64,000 bases of DNA, from NCBI RefSeq assembly GCF_007556595.1, contig NZ_VJNB01000011.1, positions 1 through 64,000 of the forward strand, in the 5' to 3' direction. Below the pieces are notes generated by a model. It did no database searches. It was not told the origin of the DNA and saw nothing but the letters and a program-made list of their open reading frames with translations. Positions 1 to 8,000 of the stretch are shown in pieces. Source of the stretch: Tepidimonas alkaliphilus. Its GTDB lineage: Bacteria; Pseudomonadota; Gammaproteobacteria; Burkholderiales; Burkholderiaceae_C. A program made the translations under genes and the position numbers. How positions within the stretch are numbered: position 1 is the stretch's first letter; every line of letters begins with the position of its first letter.

Positions 1-1123
1 GCCCCCCGATGGCGCCGGCCCAGCCACGCCGCAGACCGGGGCCACGGCAACCTCGACTCAGACGGATTCGGCGCTGGTTCCGGCCCTGGCCTCGTCCGAG
101 GCGACATCTGCCCCAACCGCCGCGCCCCCCTTGCCTGCCAGGCCCGCCCCGACCGCCGCTGCTGAGGCCGAGGCCGCCGCACCTGGCGCGGCCAGCGCCG
201 CCACGCGCCAGGGCTGGCTCGGCCGCCTGCGGGAGGGCCTCAAGAAGACCGGCGCCAGCCTGTCGGCGGTGTTCGCCGGCGCGCGCATCGACGAGACGCT
301 GTATGAGGAGCTGGAGACCGCGCTGCTGCTGGCCGACGCTGGCGCGCCGGCGACGCAGGCACTACTGGACGACCTGCGCCGGCGCGTGCGCCAGGCGCGC
401 GCCAGCGACGCGGTGCACGTGCGCGCGCTGCTGGTGGACGTGATCGCCGACTGGCTGCAGCCGCTGCAGAAGGCGCTGGAGGTCGGCGCGCAGCCCGACG
501 GCCCCACCGTCTGGATGGTGGCCGGCGTCAACGGCGCCGGCAAGACCACCACCATCGGCAAATTGACCTGGCACTTGGCGCAGCACGGCGCCACTGTGCT
601 ACTGGCCGCCGCCGACACCTTCCGCGCCGCCGCGCGCGAGCAGCTGGGCGTCTGGGCCGAACGCAACGGGGTGGACATCGTCGCGCAAGCCGGCGGCGAC
701 CCAGCTGCAGTGGCGTTCGACGCCGTCAGCGCCGGCCGCGCGCGCGGCAAGGATGTGGTCATTGTGGACACCGCCGGGCGGCTGCCAACGCAGCTGCACC
801 TGATGGAGGAGCTGCGCAAGGTCAAGCGCGTGGTGGCCAAGGCCGAGCCGGGCGCGCCGCACGAGGTGCTGCTGGTGCTGGACGGCCACACCGGCCAAAA
901 CGCCCTGGCGCAGGTCAAGGCGTTCGACGCGGCGCTGGGCCTCACCGGCCTCATCGTCACCAAGCTGGACGGCACCGCCAAGGGCGGCGTGCTGTGTGCG
1001 ATCGCGCAGTGGGCGCGCGAACAGCAGCGCGTGCTGCCGGTTTATTTCATCGGCATCGGCGAAAAGCTGGAGGACTTGCAACCCTTTGACGCGCGCGAGT
1101 TTGCTCAGGCGCTGCTGGCCTAG
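1..1123 (+). CDS. ftsY: FtsY, signal recognition particle receptor (5' end outside window)
   Basis: SRP-receptor GTPase that docks ribosome-nascent-chain-SRP complexes at the inner membrane. The reading frame is open back to the first base, so the true start lies upstream; a TTG near 131 is only an internal codon. About the first 45 visible residues are an Ala/Pro/Thr-rich linker, the usual N-terminal A-region. The N domain follows (ETLYEELETALLLAD), then the G domain: P-loop GVNGAGKTTT at nt 523-552, DTAGR near 767-781, and TKLDGTAKGG from about 959. The C-terminus YFIGIGEKLEDLQPFDAREF is typical of the family. The gene is complete at its 3' end and no terminator hairpin is obvious after it. 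Identification is secure; only the start is missing. Confidence 0.97.
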   Translation, partial: PPDGAGPATPQTGATATSTQTDSALVPALASSEATSAPTAAPPLPARPAPTAAAEAEAAAPGAASAATRQGWLGRLREGLKKTGASLSAVFAGARIDETLYEELETALLLADAGAPATQALLDDLRRRVRQARASDAVHVRALLVDVIADWLQPLQKALEVGAQPDGPTVWMVAGVNGAGKTTTIGKLTWHLAQHGATVLLAAADTFRAAAREQLGVWAERNGVDIVAQAGGDPAAVAFDAVSAGRARGKDVVIVDTAGRLPTQLHLMEELRKVKRVVAKAEPGAPHEVLLVLDGHTGQNALAQVKAFDAALGLTGLIVTKLDGTAKGGVLCAIAQWAREQQRVLPVYFIGIGEKLEDLQPFDAREFAQALLA

Positions 1124-1167
1124 ACCGCATGCGCCATACCCCTTACCCGTTTCGGACATGCACAAAC

Positions 1168-1181
1168 TTGATCTAGCGCAA
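1168..1181 (+). promoter_or_regulatory. Candidate FNR/CRP-type site upstream of the cytochrome-FccB genes
   Basis: The 14-mer TTGATCTAGCGCAA has a perfect left FNR half-site (TTGAT), a 4-nt spacer and a partial right half (CGCAA against ATCAA, 3 of 5). It lies about 105 nt before the start of the monoheme cytochrome gene, in the only intergenic gap upstream of the sulfide dehydrogenase locus. No strong -35/-10 pair was found next to it. Assignment rests on consensus resemblance only. Confidence 0.3.
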
Positions 1182-1287
1182 ACCCTGATTCCGAATATCA
1201 GTCAGTCGTGATACACATCGCATGACTGTCACACCTCGCGTTTCTTACTGCCCACGATAACCCAACCCCCCAGAGGAGCACACCCCG

Positions 1288-1590
1288 ATGAACATCGTGC
1301 GAACCGCCCTTGCATGTGCAGCAGCCGCGGTGGCCATGGGCTCAGCCCAGGCCCAGGTCGATCAAGTCAAAGTTTGGGCTGCCGCCTGCGCCAACTGCCA
1401 TGGCACCAACGGTCATGCCCAGCCCGGCATGGAAGCGCTGGCCGGCAAAAACGCCGATGACATGACCAAGGCGCTGCTGGACTTCAAAGCCGGACGCAAG
1501 CCCGCCACCATCATGCACCAGATCGCCAAGGGCTACACCGACGACGAGCTGCGCGCCATTGCCGCTTACTTCGCCGCCCAGAAAAAATAA
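1288..1590 (+). CDS. Small periplasmic monoheme c-type cytochrome
   Basis: A 100-residue class I cytochrome c. Residues 1-22 form a Sec signal peptide ending in SAQA, so the product is periplasmic. One heme-binding motif is visible, CANCH at residues 34-38, and Met residues further on (for example in GMEAL and TIMHQ) could supply the distal ligand. It sits 19 nt upstream of an FccB-type flavoprotein. It is therefore most likely the electron acceptor or cytochrome subunit of the sulfide dehydrogenase, equivalent in role to FccA or SoxE. The well-known FccA of purple sulfur bacteria is diheme, so this is a shorter relative. An RBS (AGAGGAG) precedes the ATG. The cytochrome c call is secure; the partner role is inferred from adjacency. 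Confidence 0.9.
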   Translation: MNIVRTALACAAAAVAMGSAQAQVDQVKVWAAACANCHGTNGHAQPGMEALAGKNADDMTKALLDFKAGRKPATIMHQIAKGYTDDELRAIAAYFAAQKK

Positions 1591-1609
1591 ACCTTGAGGA
1601 GAACCTGCC

Positions 1610-2902
1610 ATGATGCAACGTCGCCAATTCGTTTCCACCGTCGCCGCTGGTTCGGCGTTAGGTTCTCTGGGTTTGCTGGGCGGCTGCGCCGCGCCCGCCG
1701 TAGGCGGAGCCGGCAGCCCGCATGTGGTCGTCATCGGCGGCGGCTACGGCGGGGCTACCGCGGCCAAATACACGCGCATGTTCTCCGAGGGCAAGGTGCA
1801 GGTCACGCTGATTGAGCCGAACGAGGCGTTTGTCTCGTGCCCGATCTCCAACCTGGTGATCGGCGGCTTGAAGCAGATGAGCGACATCACCGTGCCGTAT
1901 GACAATCTGGCCAAGCGCCACGGCGTCAAAATCATCCGCGACCGCGCCACCGCGGTGGATCCGGACAAACGCGTGGTCAAGCTGGCCGGTGGGGGCGAAG
2001 TGAAATACGACCGGCTGATCGTGTCGCCCGGCATCGATTTTATGTGGGAAACGCTGCCGGGCATGAATCGCCCGGGCGCGCAAGACCAAGTGCTGCACGC
2101 CTGGAAAGCCGGCCCGCAGACGGTGGCGCTGCGCAAGCAGCTGGAGGCCATGCCCGACGGCGGCGTCTATGCGCTGGCTATTCCGCTGGCGCCTTACCGG
2201 TGCCCGCCTGGACCCTATGAGCGCGCCTGCATGGTGGCGCATTACTTCAAAAAAGCCAAGCCCAAGAGCAAGGTCATCATCTTTGACGCCAACGACGACG
2301 TCACCTCCAAACCGGCGCTGTTCAAAAAGGCCTGGGAAGAACACTACAAAGGCATCATTGAATATCGCCCGAAGCACCGCGTGGTCGATGTGGATGTGGC
2401 CGCCAAGACGCTGAAGTTCGAATTCAACGACGATTTCAAAGGCACAGTGCTCAACGTCTTGCCGAACATGCGCGCGGCCGACATCGCCGTGCAAATGGGC
2501 CTGGCCACGGCCAACAAGCGATGGTGTGAAGTGGACTTCCTGACCATGGAGTCGGTGGCGGTGAAAAACGTCCACGTGTTGGGTGACGCCATTCAAATCG
2601 CGCCTGCGATGCCGAAATCGGGTCACATGGCCAACCAACACGGCAAGACCTGCGCGGCGGCGGTGGTCAGCCTGCTGATGGGCAAAGAGCCGCCCAAGCA
2701 GCCGCTCTACGCCAACACCTGCTACAGCTTCGTCACGGACGAGGACGTGGTGCACGTGGCCAGCGTCCATCGCTACGACCCCGAGAAGAAAACCATGCTG
2801 ACGGTGCCTGGCTCAGGCGGCGTCTCCACGCGCGCCAGCGAGCTTGAAGGTCGCTACGCGCTCGCCTGGGCGCGCAACATCTGGGCCGATACGCTGGCCT
2901 GA
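1610..2902 (+). CDS. fccB: Flavocytochrome c sulfide dehydrogenase, flavoprotein subunit
   Basis: A 430-residue FAD-dependent sulfide:cytochrome c oxidoreductase of the FccB/SoxF family, which oxidises sulfide to sulfur or polysulfide in the periplasm. Residues 1-30 are a Tat signal: twin arginine RRQF at 4-7, a hydrophobic stretch, then LGGC at 23-26, which also resembles a lipobox. The dinucleotide-binding motif GGGYGGATAA follows at about 43-52. Cys77 in FVSCPISN aligns with the cysteine that binds FAD covalently in FccB. Cys198 (APYRCPPGP) and Cys371 (YANTCYSF) are the likely redox disulfide pair. HVLGDA near 322-327 is the second FAD contact. The upstream cytochrome is 19 nt away with an AGGAG RBS between them. 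GC content is visibly lower than in most neighbours. Confidence 0.93.
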   Translation: MMQRRQFVSTVAAGSALGSLGLLGGCAAPAVGGAGSPHVVVIGGGYGGATAAKYTRMFSEGKVQVTLIEPNEAFVSCPISNLVIGGLKQMSDITVPYDNLAKRHGVKIIRDRATAVDPDKRVVKLAGGGEVKYDRLIVSPGIDFMWETLPGMNRPGAQDQVLHAWKAGPQTVALRKQLEAMPDGGVYALAIPLAPYRCPPGPYERACMVAHYFKKAKPKSKVIIFDANDDVTSKPALFKKAWEEHYKGIIEYRPKHRVVDVDVAAKTLKFEFNDDFKGTVLNVLPNMRAADIAVQMGLATANKRWCEVDFLTMESVAVKNVHVLGDAIQIAPAMPKSGHMANQHGKTCAAAVVSLLMGKEPPKQPLYANTCYSFVTDEDVVHVASVHRYDPEKKTMLTVPGSGGVSTRASELEGRYALAWARNIWADTLA

Positions 2903-2919
2903 TCCGCTGCCCTTTGAGT

Positions 2920-2957
2920 CATCGGGGCCGCTCCACCGAACAAAGGAGCCCCCGATG
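2920..2957 (+). terminator. Hairpin terminator or attenuator after fccB
   Basis: An 8-bp outer stem (CATCGGGG pairing with CCCCGATG) and a 5-bp inner stem (GCTCC with GGAGC), separated by a 2-nt bulge, enclose a 10-nt loop. A T-rich run (TTTTCTCTTT) follows about 11 nt downstream. The hairpin lies between fccB and the diheme cytochrome gene, so it may end the fccB transcript or only reduce read-through. Confidence 0.6.
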
Positions 2958-3006
2958 GCTCTGGGGTTTTCTCTTTGGTGCAATATTCATATAAGCATGG
3001 TTGCAC

Positions 3007-3020
3007 ATTGGAATTCCAAT
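3007..3020. promoter_or_regulatory. Perfect 14-bp palindrome upstream of the diheme cytochrome
   Basis: ATTGGAATTCCAAT is a perfect inverted repeat centred about 25 nt before the ATG of the diheme cytochrome gene. It is AT-rich in a GC-rich region and is preceded by TATAAG at 2990-2995, a possible -10 element. It could be an operator. No matching factor is encoded nearby, so function is inferred from symmetry and position only. Confidence 0.35.
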
Positions 3021-3038
3021 TGCATGAAGCAAGGTGCC

Positions 3039-3665
3039 ATGAGCGTTAACCGAGCGTCTGTTTGGCGGCGTAGCTTGCGACCCCTAGCCGTGCTGATCGC
3101 AATGGCCAGCGCCACAGCGGTGTGGGCTCAGGCTGATGAAGCCCGCGCGCGTAAAATCGCTAATGGCACATGTTTTATGTGCCACGGCGAAAATGGCGAA
3201 TCCACCAGCGAGATCTTTCCCCGCCTGGCGGGCCAAAATGCGGAATATCTGGCCAAACAACTCAAAGCGTTCAAAACGGGGGAGCGCAAGAGCACCGCAA
3301 TGGCCGAGATGGTGGCCAAATTAACCGACGATGAAATGATCGCGCTCGGTCGTTATTACGAAAAAATGCCGGCTGTGCGCGAGGAAGCCAAAGATCCCCA
3401 GCTGGCGCTGGTCGGCAAATACATTTACCATAACGGCAACAAATTCAGCGGCGTGCCGGCTTGCTCCTCGTGCCATGGCGCGGACGGCTACGGCACCGCT
3501 TCGCTGCCGCGTCTGAGCGGGCAGTTGTCCAGCTATCTCTTCACACAACTCAAGCAGTTCAACAAGCGCCAACGCACCAACGACAACGTCGTGATGCACA
3601 CGGTGGCCGAAAAAATGACGGAATTTGAAATGGCTGCCGTTGCGGAATACCTCAGCAGCAAATAA
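3039..3665 (+). CDS. Periplasmic diheme cytochrome c (c4/FccA-like)
   Basis: The start at 3039 is chosen because AAGG at 3031-3034 sits at RBS distance and a clean signal peptide follows (residues 1-30, ending VWA). In-frame starts further upstream would add non-signal sequence. The mature protein has two cytochrome c domains: CFMCH at residues 45-49 and CSSCH at 142-146. The internal repetition (PRLAGQNAEYLAKQL and PRLSGQLSSYLFTQL) is typical of cytochrome c4, which carries electrons to terminal oxidases, and of diheme FccA. At 208 residues it fits both. Proximity to fccB suggests it takes electrons from sulfide oxidation. The hairpin between them means it may be a separate transcript. Confidence 0.9.
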   Translation: MSVNRASVWRRSLRPLAVLIAMASATAVWAQADEARARKIANGTCFMCHGENGESTSEIFPRLAGQNAEYLAKQLKAFKTGERKSTAMAEMVAKLTDDEMIALGRYYEKMPAVREEAKDPQLALVGKYIYHNGNKFSGVPACSSCHGADGYGTASLPRLSGQLSSYLFTQLKQFNKRQRTNDNVVMHTVAEKMTEFEMAAVAEYLSSK

Positions 3666-3686
3666 ACGCCATCTGCACGCCAAGCC

Positions 3687-5018
3687 CTAGGCGGCGTGCA
3701 GCTTGTCGTGAATGCGGCGGTTGATGCGCCACACCGCCCACAGCACCAACGGCATGGCCAGCCCTGCCGCTAATTCTGGATGCAGCGGCACGCCCGCAGA
3801 CTTCAGCGCCTTGGCGCCGTAGAGCACCAAGCTGATGACGTAATACGAAATCGCCGCGATCGACAGCCCCTCCACCGTGGTCTGCAAGCGCAATTGCAGC
3901 GCTTGTCCGCGCGTCAACTTTTCCAGCAGCACGCGGTTTTGCTCCTCGCGCGCGATGTCCACGCGGGTGCGCAGCAGCGCGCTGGTGCGCGTCACGCGCC
4001 CCGATAGCGCCCCCAGCCGCTGCTCCACCGAGGCCACCGTGGCGATCGCGGGCGCCAGGCGGCGCTGCATGAATTCGCTGATGGTTTGCGTGCCGGGAAT
4101 GGGGCGCTCGCGCAACTCACCAATGCGCTGCTGCACCAGGCGATCGTAAGCTCGGGTGGCTGAGAAGCGGTAGCCGTGCTCGGCGATGCTGCGTTCCACC
4201 CGCGCGGCCAGCGCCACCAGCGCATCCAGCAGCACCTGGTCGGAGACGGCCTTGGCCTCCATCGCCGCCGTCAGGCGGGCCAGCTCCACCTCATCCCGCG
4301 CCAGCGGCCCCAGCAACCCTTTGGCCACGGGCAAGCCCAGCAGCGCCATCATGCGGTAGGTCTCCAGCTCCAGCAACCGGGCCGAGATGCGGCCCGCGCG
4401 CGTCTCGCTGGTGGTGGACGGCGCCAGCACCAGCATGCGCTCGAAGCCGTCAGGCCGCAGGTGAAAATCCGTCACCACCAGCGAGTGCGACGGGTTGCCC
4501 AGCAACGAGGCCACGATGGGCCGTCCGTCAAACCAGACCCGCGCGCGCTCCAGCAAGGCTGGCGGGTCGTCCAGCGGCTGCGGATCCATGGCCAGCTCCA
4601 CCGCGGCGATGGTGCGTCCTGGAATGGCCGCCAGCCATCCCGGCGGCAACAGCAGTTGCGATTGCCACACCGGATCGCGCGCGCCCAAGCCTGCTCCAGC
4701 CGGCAGCGGCTGCACCAGCGAGTAGCGCGTAAATTCCGTATGGCGCTCCCATTTCAGGGTGTAGCCACCGCAGCGCAAACGCAAAAAATGGCGGCTCAGG
4801 TCATCCAGCGTCAAATGCTGCTGCCCAGGCAGTTGTCGCAAATGGGCCAGCTCGTGTTCGCGCTTGACATCCTCGTTGAGCACAGCCACATACACCACCA
4901 GCGCCGGCAATCGAATACGCGCCGCGGGGCGGGCGTGGATTTCCTCATGCAGCGCCCGCCGGCGATCGTCGTCAGGCGGCAAATCGACTCGACAGACCTC
5001 TTCTGCAAACTGGCTCAT
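3687..5018 (-). CDS. DUF3422 family membrane-anchored protein
   Basis: A 443-residue protein of the DUF3422 family, whose function is unknown. The start at 5018 is supported by AAGG about 9 nt upstream; longer in-frame extensions would run through the promoter region of the divergent gene. The N-terminal part includes DRRRALHEEIHARPA and is followed by a long soluble region. Residues about 300-370 are predicted helical and rich in Arg, Gln and Glu (SVEQRLGALSGRVTRTSALL, LLEKLTRGQALQLRLQTTVEG). Two C-terminal hydrophobic segments (AAISYYVISLVLYGAKAL and LAAGLAMPLVLWAVWRI) likely form a membrane hairpin. The gene converges on the cytochrome gene and diverges from the GGDEF-EAL gene with 65 nt between starts. 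Confidence 0.85.
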   Translation of the reverse strand: MSQFAEEVCRVDLPPDDDRRRALHEEIHARPAARIRLPALVVYVAVLNEDVKREHELAHLRQLPGQQHLTLDDLSRHFLRLRCGGYTLKWERHTEFTRYSLVQPLPAGAGLGARDPVWQSQLLLPPGWLAAIPGRTIAAVELAMDPQPLDDPPALLERARVWFDGRPIVASLLGNPSHSLVVTDFHLRPDGFERMLVLAPSTTSETRAGRISARLLELETYRMMALLGLPVAKGLLGPLARDEVELARLTAAMEAKAVSDQVLLDALVALAARVERSIAEHGYRFSATRAYDRLVQQRIGELRERPIPGTQTISEFMQRRLAPAIATVASVEQRLGALSGRVTRTSALLRTRVDIAREEQNRVLLEKLTRGQALQLRLQTTVEGLSIAAISYYVISLVLYGAKALKSAGVPLHPELAAGLAMPLVLWAVWRINRRIHDKLHAA

Positions 5019-5083: not shown

Positions 5084-8000
5084 ATGACATCCTTGCTGGG
5101 TTTGGATCCCCGAAATCTCTCAGGCAACCTGCCCGAGCGGCGGGTTGTCTGGGCGTTGACCGCGCTCGCCCAGGATTTCGGCAGCCCGCGCGGCTGGCGC
5201 CGCGCCTTGGCGTTGCTGGTTGCGCTGACGCTGGCCACCTCTGCATCGGCCCGGCTGCTGCCTGAAGCGCTGCAACAGCACGCCGTGCCCGCGTGGGTGA
5301 TCGATCCGCAGGACGGCACCATCGTGGATGCCAACACCGCCGCCGTGGCCTTCTACGGCTACCCTGATCTGGCCAGCGGCCGCCTCCACATCACGCAGAT
5401 CAACCAGCTTTCTCAAGCCGAAATCCGCGCCGAAATCGAGCGCGCCCGGCGCGAAGGGCGTGGCTACTACCTCTTCCCGCACCGCCTGGCCGATGGCCGC
5501 ATTGTCACCGTAGAGGTGCACAGCAGCCCCTTCGAAGCCGAGGGACGCACGCTGCTGCTGTCGCTGTTGCTGCCTGAAAGCCGCAGCCTCGCGCTGCAAC
5601 AGGAGCTGCAGCGCTACCAAAACCGGCTGGAGGCGTTGGTGGCGCAGCGCACCCAACAGGCGCTTGGGGCTTTGCAAACCCTCAACCGCGTTTTGGTGGC
5701 GGCGCTGGCCGGCGCGGGGATCGCCCTAGCCGTGGTGTGGGCCATGATGCTGCGGCTACGGCGGTCGTTGCGACGCGAGCGCACGCTGGCCAATCGGCTC
5801 GATGACGTGCTGCTCGGCGCCCAGCTCGGCTACGGCGAATGGGACTTGGAGCGTGACCGCATCACGCTGCACCCGCGTCTGTGGCAGTTGTTGGGTGAAG
5901 CGTCCATACCCGCAGAGGCAGGACTCACCAGCGCTCAGCTGGCCGCCCGGCTGCACCCCGAAGACGAGCCGACGCTGCGCGCCACGCTCATTGCGCATTT
6001 GAAAGGCCAAACCCAAGCCGCGGATATGCGCTTCCGCGCCCGGCACGCCGCCGGCCATTGGGTTTGGCTGCAAGCGTGGGGCCGCGTGGTGGCGCGCGAC
6101 CCGCAAAGCGGGCGGGCCCGGCAGTTGGCCGGCGTGGTGCGCGACGTCAGCCATGAAGTGGCGCTGGAGCAATCGCGCGCGATTGCGCTGAGCGTCTTTC
6201 AGGATGCCGGTGAGGCCATCGTGGTCACAGATGAACACGGCGTGGTGCTGGAGATCAACGACGCCATGGTGCAACTCAGCGGCTACGCGCGCGAGGAACT
6301 CCTCGGCCAAGCCCGCCTGCCTTGGCGCGCGGAGCAGCACCACGCCACGCCGAGCTGGACGCGGCTGCGACGACGCCTGCTGCGCGAGGGCCGCTGGCGC
6401 GGCGAAGCTTGGTGGCGCCACCGGGACGGACGTCTCATCCCGGTCATCGAAACCGTCTCGGTGGTGCGCGACGGCGGCGGACGCGTCATGCGCTACGTGG
6501 CGCTGGCGCAAGACATCTCGGCGCTCAAAGCGCAACAGCAGGCGCTGGAGCACCAAGCGTTTCACGATGTCTTGACGGGCCTGCCCAACCGCGCGCTGCT
6601 GGCCGACCGCTTGGCCCTGGCGATCGCCAGCGCCCACCGCCACCAGCGGCGCGTGGCGGTGGCCTATCTTGATTTGGACGGCTTCAAGCACATCAACGAC
6701 CGCCACGGCCACATGGTGGGCGATGCCGTGCTGCGCGAAATCGCCCTGCGGCTGCAGCGCGCGCTGCGCGAAGGCGACACGCTGGCGCGCGTGGGCGGGG
6801 ACGAGTTTGTCGCGGTGCTGGCCGACCTCGACGACGGGCCAGGTTGGCAAGCCGTCATCGAGCGGCTGCTCAACGCCTGCACGCAGCCGCTGAGCAGCCT
6901 CAGCGGCGCCACGCAACTCACCACCAGCATCGGCGTCACGCTCTACCCCGACGACGGCGCCGACGCCGAAGTGCTGCTGCGGCACGCCGACCAGGCGCTC
7001 TACCGCGCCAAGCGCGAGGGCAAAAACCGCTGGGTGCTGTTCGATCCGGCTGAAGATCGCGAGGCGGTGGCGCACGCCGAACGGGTGGCCGACCTGCGCC
7101 GCGGGCTGGCCGCCGGTGAGTTCGCCTTGCACTTGCAGCCGCGGGTGCGCCTGTCGGATGGCGCGGTGCTAGGGGCGGAAGCGCTGCTGCGCTGGCGGCA
7201 CCCGCGCGACGGCTGGCGCTTGCCCGGCTCTTTTCTGCCGGCCATCGAACACGACGACGTGATGATCGAGCTGGGCCAGTGGGTTCTCAACGAGGCGCTG
7301 GCCATCCTGGAGGATTGGCAGCGCCGGCAACGGCCGCCGTGGCAGCTTTCAATCAACGTGGCGGCGCGCCAGCTGCGCGACCCCGCATTTGCCGACCGGC
7401 TGGAACAAGCGCTGCAGCAGCATCCCGGTGCCGACCCTCGGCAGCTCGAGCTGGAAATCGTCGAGACCAGTGCGCTGGAGGGCGTGGAAGCGTTGCAGCG
7501 TTTGCTGGCGCGCTGCCGCGCGCTTGGGGTGGGCGTGGCCATCGACGACTTCGGCACCGGCTACTCATCACTGGCTTACCTGAAGCGCCTGCCGGCCACC
7601 GTGGTCAAAATCGACCAAAGCTTTGTACGCGACCTGTTTGACGAACCGAGCGATCTGCGCATCGTAGAGGGTATCGTTGCGCTCGGTCATGCGTTCGGCC
7701 TGCAAGTTGTGGGCGAAGGGGTCGAGACCGCGCAGCATGGCGCGCTGCTGCTGCGCTTAGGCGCCGATGTCGGACAAGGCTGGGGCATCGCCAAGCCGAT
7801 GCCCGTGCATGACTGGCCCGCGTGGGTCGCCAGCTGGCAACCGCCGCGCGAGTGGCTGCGCTGGGCGCCTTGGGCGCGCACGCCAAGCGCGCGCGCCTTG
7901 GTGCGGCTTGAGGTGCTAAGCCAAGTTGGCCATAACCGCTTGCTCGAAGGCGAACCACTGGATCCGAGTCTGCTGGAGACCGCGCTGCAAGAGCTGGCCG

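Follow-up and report, generated by a model that had tools for sequence, protein, structure and literature searches.

Among the closest described counterparts of the locus studied here is the monoheme flavocytochrome c with PDB code 5n1t (chains A and B), whose source organism we take to be Thioalkalivibrio paradoxus; we know of no diheme companion for that system. Two further points of comparison are the diheme type of flavocytochrome c, found in purple sulfur bacteria (PDB codes: 1fcd and 3vrd), and cytochrome c4 (PDB codes: 6q2u, 8uf3 and 1etp). Except in phototrophs, the carrier to which flavocytochrome c hands its electrons is, to our knowledge, poorly defined. The accessible part of one report describes FccA as either monohaem or dihaem (PMC12010331), therefore a monoheme partner is not unusual. 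With the single-heme chain of the solved 5n1t_B, this makes the statement of the initial annotation of this DNA, that classical flavocytochrome c uses one diheme subunit, incomplete. The copy numbers of fccA and fccB vary in Thioalkalivibrio, according to the accessible part of another report (PMC6382920).

The window, by which we mean the whole stretch of 64,000 nucleotides that was analysed, belongs to a genome of Tepidimonas alkaliphilus (2.46 Mb in 33 contigs). The initial annotation had described a sulfide dehydrogenase locus with two cytochromes, which is borne out, and the three genes and the hairpin were found in place (Table 1). The locus encodes a known enzyme type together with a conserved but optional companion cytochrome. 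It was compared with two overlapping sets of relatives: a set of 60, among which 54 gave a match and the 30 best loci were examined (the T. alkaliphilus locus included), and a named set of 80, which top a list of more than 586 candidates and are hence close relatives. FccB shares 86-90% identity with its orthologs from T. sediminis, T. thermarum, T. aquatica and one MAG.

Table 1 Features of the fcc locus in the window
Feature	Position	Strand	Remarks
Palindromic operator-like site	1193..1216	+	core ATATCA-N8-TGATAC at 1195-1214, upstream of fccA
fccA-type monoheme cytochrome c	1288..1590	+	100 aa, Sec signal by eye
fccB flavoprotein	1610..2902	+	430 aa; twin-arginine signal and lipobox (Cys26); Cys77, Cys198 and Cys371 kept
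Terminator-like hairpin (2909-2967) with T-rich tail	2909..2976	+	-38.3 kcal/mol
Weak operator-like copy, best before the diheme gene in this genome	2971..2994	-	chance expectation for the region 0.26
Diheme cytochrome c, c4 family	3039..3665	+	208 aa, Sec signal by eye

FccB matches both FCSD Pfam domains above the cut-off (FCSD_central, PF21706, 155 bits, 1e-45; FCSD-flav_bind, PF09242, 88.6 bits, 3.6e-25) and, with E values no higher than 2.1e-99, three FccB chains of known structure (3vrd_B, 1fcd_A and 5n1t_A). It resembles 5n1t_A over its whole length, and it shares with the FccB of the purple sulfur bacterial enzyme both the domains and the cysteines. The three cysteines listed in Table 1 align with Cys residues of 1fcd, 3vrd and 5n1t and are kept in 80/80 named relatives in an alignment-anchored count; presumably, they are the FAD-linking cysteine and the redox cysteine pair. 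The N-terminus carries a twin-arginine signal (RRQF) that ends in a lipobox (LGGC), a feature overlooked in the initial annotation. Alignment-anchored counts revealed an RR in the examined stretch of 79 of the 80 named relatives and a lipobox-like Cys in 63; the 17 relatives that lack this Cys include all five Cupriavidus and five of the seven Polynucleobacter rows. FccB is probably exported by Tat and lipid-anchored via Cys26, which would alter the picture of a soluble enzyme. The anchoring, if real, would be a lineage trait, because the lipobox Cys is missing in those 17 relatives as well as in 5n1t_A, which has no cysteine at the corresponding position. All 17 loci with an adjacent diheme gene have the lipobox Cys, versus 46 of the remaining 63; the chance odds were 0.007 in an earlier pattern-based count, and since the loci are related, no inference is drawn from this association. 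No report of an FccB with a lipoprotein or Tat signal was found in the titles and abstract openings of the open-licence literature.

The monoheme protein has one CXXCH motif, and its first structure match is 5n1t_B, a small single-heme chain of similar size. Its gene lies just upstream of fccB in all of the 30 best loci (own included) and, in 78 of the 80 named loci, shares the strand of fccB and starts no more than 300 bp ahead of it, the two exceptions being a locus with the monoheme gene 2.1 kb upstream (L104) and one with only 76 bp of upstream sequence (L116). Scored per domain on five chains (1h1o, 6q2u, 8uf3, 3vrd_A and 5lo9), the monoheme profile reached 73.6 bits on 3vrd_A, an FccA chain, in its N-terminal heme domain, vs at most 61.0 bits on a domain of the three c4-type chains. 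A c4 reading of the monoheme protein was rejected: c4-type chains lead the whole-protein ranking because the scores of their two domains add up, and the per-domain scores favour FccA. The monoheme protein is the FccA of this lineage, and it and FccB represent the monoheme class of flavocytochrome c sulfide dehydrogenases, which is a known one. In the diheme FccA of purple sulfur bacteria, the counterpart of the monoheme protein is the N-terminal heme domain; the FccA here differs in having one heme, and the diheme protein encoded downstream is not the FccA of the enzyme.

The diheme protein, which has two CXXCH motifs and whose likely start is the ATG at 3039 (alternative ATG at 3024), had been called c4/FccA-like. 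The c4 part of this designation stood and the FccA part did not: its profile scores 111-129 bits on c4-type chains, with a full-length match, vs 42-47 bits on FccA chains, and these scores together with the tree rule out a second FccA. In a tree of 54 dihemes, many inner forks of which are poorly supported, the diheme belongs to a clade (support 100/98) with 34 rows, among which 32 are near fccB and two are away from it. Outside this fcc-linked clade, which sets the diheme apart from otherwise similar c4 proteins, are 14 engB-linked c4 rows, one of them from the same genome, while three dihemes that stand beside a second FccB form a long separate branch, far from the diheme studied here.

The diheme gene directly follows fccB in 17 of the 80 named loci (L072, with only 469 bp of downstream sequence, cannot be judged) and lies within 2.4 kb of it in the opposite orientation in two more (L131 and L134). 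Among the 30 best loci it follows fccB in 13 and faces it in two (L033 and L034). Most relatives have no diheme gene beside fccB, e.g. the close relative Hydrogenophaga sp. IBVHS1 (76%, 8 kb of downstream sequence), therefore FccAB does not generally need the diheme. On account of these synteny counts (17/80 and 13/30) and of a clade found mostly near fccB, the diheme can be regarded, as far as sequence and gene order tell, as an optional companion specialised to the fcc locus and not as a core subunit. Among the papers listed from the open-licence literature, no title or abstract opening described a flavocytochrome c with a cytochrome c4 companion. A c4 paralog tied by synteny to the enzyme in part of the Burkholderiales would provide a concrete acceptor candidate.

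In one family member (L156, G034:C3:110000-126000), a second divergent diheme gene (6397-7008) faces the first, beside a gene similar to that of a YeeE-like sulfur transporter; it groups with an lpd-linked diheme of the T. alkaliphilus genome.

The gap between the monoheme gene and fccB is 19 bp, which suggests one transcript. The hairpin that had been noticed between fccB and the diheme gene is indeed present in their 136-bp gap, is strong, and beats all shuffles (0/60 dinucleotide shuffles were as stable). The sequence of this intergenic region varies among ten Tepidimonas genomes and the hairpin with its T-rich tail recurs: in six (own included) it is more stable than all 60 shuffles, in three it is weaker (7, 17 and 21 of the 60 shuffles were as stable) and in one it is missing. 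We read the hairpin as a putative terminator of fccAB, with the diheme gene transcribed separately. A scan of positions 1000-4200 found 10 terminator-like sites vs 4.0 in shuffles, and no sigma-70-like promoter was found in a scan of the same interval.

We consider it likely that the locus encodes an FccAB sulfide dehydrogenase and a locus-specialised c4-type carrier leading onward to an oxidase, the diheme being no second FccA. The proposal builds on what the DNA itself records, namely gene identities, conserved cysteines, signal motifs, hairpin, synteny and c4 membership. The monoheme FccA and FccB would form one flavocytochrome c, FccB being exported by Tat and probably held by a lipid on Cys26; sulfide, the presumed substrate, would be oxidised at the FAD and the cysteine pair of FccB, from where electrons would pass to the single heme of FccA. 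The c4-type diheme would most likely act as a periplasmic carrier from FccA to the terminal oxidase, and the locus may be under sulfur-responsive control. Between the two proposals of the initial annotation, a relay from flavin to monoheme to diheme to oxidase and alternative partners for FccB, the former appears to be the better fit and the latter is unlikely.

A role of the diheme as a general respiratory cytochrome c4, placed beside fccB by chance, is unlikely. Cytochromes c4 are general electron carriers; the diheme is a c4 by profile, and it would be separately transcribed if the hairpin terminates. However, a separate engB-linked c4 gene (L150), only 35% identical to the diheme, is present in the genome, and among the rows that are 49% or more identical to the diheme, 31 of 32 are near fccB, in both orientations.

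The exact palindrome ATATCA-N8-TGATAC upstream of fccA has no other exact match in its own genome; it is present in 9 of 11 genomes of the genus, where it occurs at the fcc locus only, and a backward control gave none. Looser palindromes precede fccA in a part of the more distant relatives, though not in the majority. Before the diheme gene, the best site is convincing in four of ten genomes (0.004-0.011 expected per region), marginal in four (0.04-0.18 expected; two at another place), absent in one and degenerate in T. alkaliphilus (0.26). With the same matrix, a site before an ArsR gene that adjoins soxC in the T. alkaliphilus genome scores 16.8, the best non-site in the window 6.4, and sites before a rhodanese gene score 8.0-14.0 in four of six orthologs, its own included; the ArsR and rhodanese domains of these genes were confirmed by Pfam. 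The operator-like site would thus connect fcc with sox and rhodanese genes at other places in the genome. Upstream of a gene on C33 that looks ccoN-like by eye, a near-match was discounted, as it overlaps an FNR-like box, and another on C17 was set aside, as it is inside an open frame; no FNR-like box was found upstream of fccA or of the diheme gene.

The rhodanese-domain protein (G000:C12:86562-87073) has a likely export signal, and the palindrome, kept in four of its six Tepidimonas orthologs, is located just before its start.

According to the accessible part of PMC10451225, Hyphomicrobium has an ArsR-type SoxR that senses sulfane sulfur and acts as a repressor of sulfur oxidation genes. 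Similarly to such SoxR/SqrR-type regulons, ArsR genes accompany the locus in 13 of the 80 relatives, where they are upstream of fccA, in the orientation of fccB and at most about 1 kb ahead of it, and the palindrome occurs both at fcc and at the soxC-linked ArsR gene. Unlike in them, no ArsR gene adjoins fcc in Tepidimonas. The best ArsR homolog in the T. alkaliphilus genome (58%) is on C23, away from fcc, in a locus that yielded no strong operator. We infer that the fcc locus may belong to a SoxR/SqrR-type regulon, with a putative site that is weak at the T. alkaliphilus diheme gene. Both the lipobox on FccB and the shared operator-like site are apparently unreported, no report having been found in the literature searched. 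More tentatively, and with considerable doubt, the locus could be a lipid-anchored three-part sulfide respiration module, in which FccAB would be fixed to the membrane by the Tat lipoprotein anchor of FccB, and the dedicated c4 paralog, on its own transcript under a related sulfur-sensing operator, would be the mobile carrier to the oxidase.

The initial annotation had stated that no other sox gene is present. This holds for the window, where searches for SoxA, SoxB and SoxC gave no match, and does not hold for the genome, where these families match other contigs: SoxB on C7 (883 bits), SoxA on C1 and C12 (248 and 199 bits) and SoxC on C32 (608 bits), with SoxX adjoining both SoxA genes. The absence is therefore an effect of the window. 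A SoxY search had no match in this genome nor in any control genome and is uninformative. One of the soxA-soxX pairs (G000:C12:201795-204230) is beside a gene of the metallo-beta-lactamase fold, apart from other sox genes.

It is quite improbable that the fcc genes are a SoxEF-like part of the Sox system, serving thiosulfate oxidation or the reactivation of Sox proteins and not sulfide oxidation as such. In two family members (L157 and L158), fccAB and the diheme gene share a cluster with soxA, soxX and soxB, joined by soxY and soxZ in L158; besides the sox genes elsewhere in the genome and the operator-like site before the soxC-linked ArsR gene, other FccB-like proteins and an SQR-like protein could perform the sulfide step. 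FccB is, however, closest to the FccB chains of structurally known sulfide dehydrogenases and retains all three cysteines, and most of the 80 loci have no soxB-like match in their flanks (limited flanks, SoxB alone sought).

The proposal that FccB pairs with the monoheme in some conditions and with the diheme in others is very improbable: both cytochrome genes are at the locus, the hairpin would permit their separate expression, and the two proteins are homologous (hhalign probability 99), but the diheme is of the c4 family with a far lower score on FccA, it is optional beside fccB, the near-invariant monoheme is retained where the diheme is missing, and the second FccB of the genus has a diheme of its own, far from this one in the tree.

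In T. alkaliphilus, the gene of that second FccB-like protein (G000:C1:385978-388016) encodes a product with 40-43% identity to FccB, and the diheme gene that follows it has an in-frame TAG; copies of this diheme gene in three relatives (G004, G005 and G009) are without it. A third FccB-like gene (G000:C28:55866-57083; 33% identity) has a lipobox-like Cys of its own and a CPPAPYER motif. In one Tepidimonas relative (G005:C11:15077-15692) the fccB match is in two pieces, its middle (about residues 29-285) being gone through a deletion or an assembly fault.
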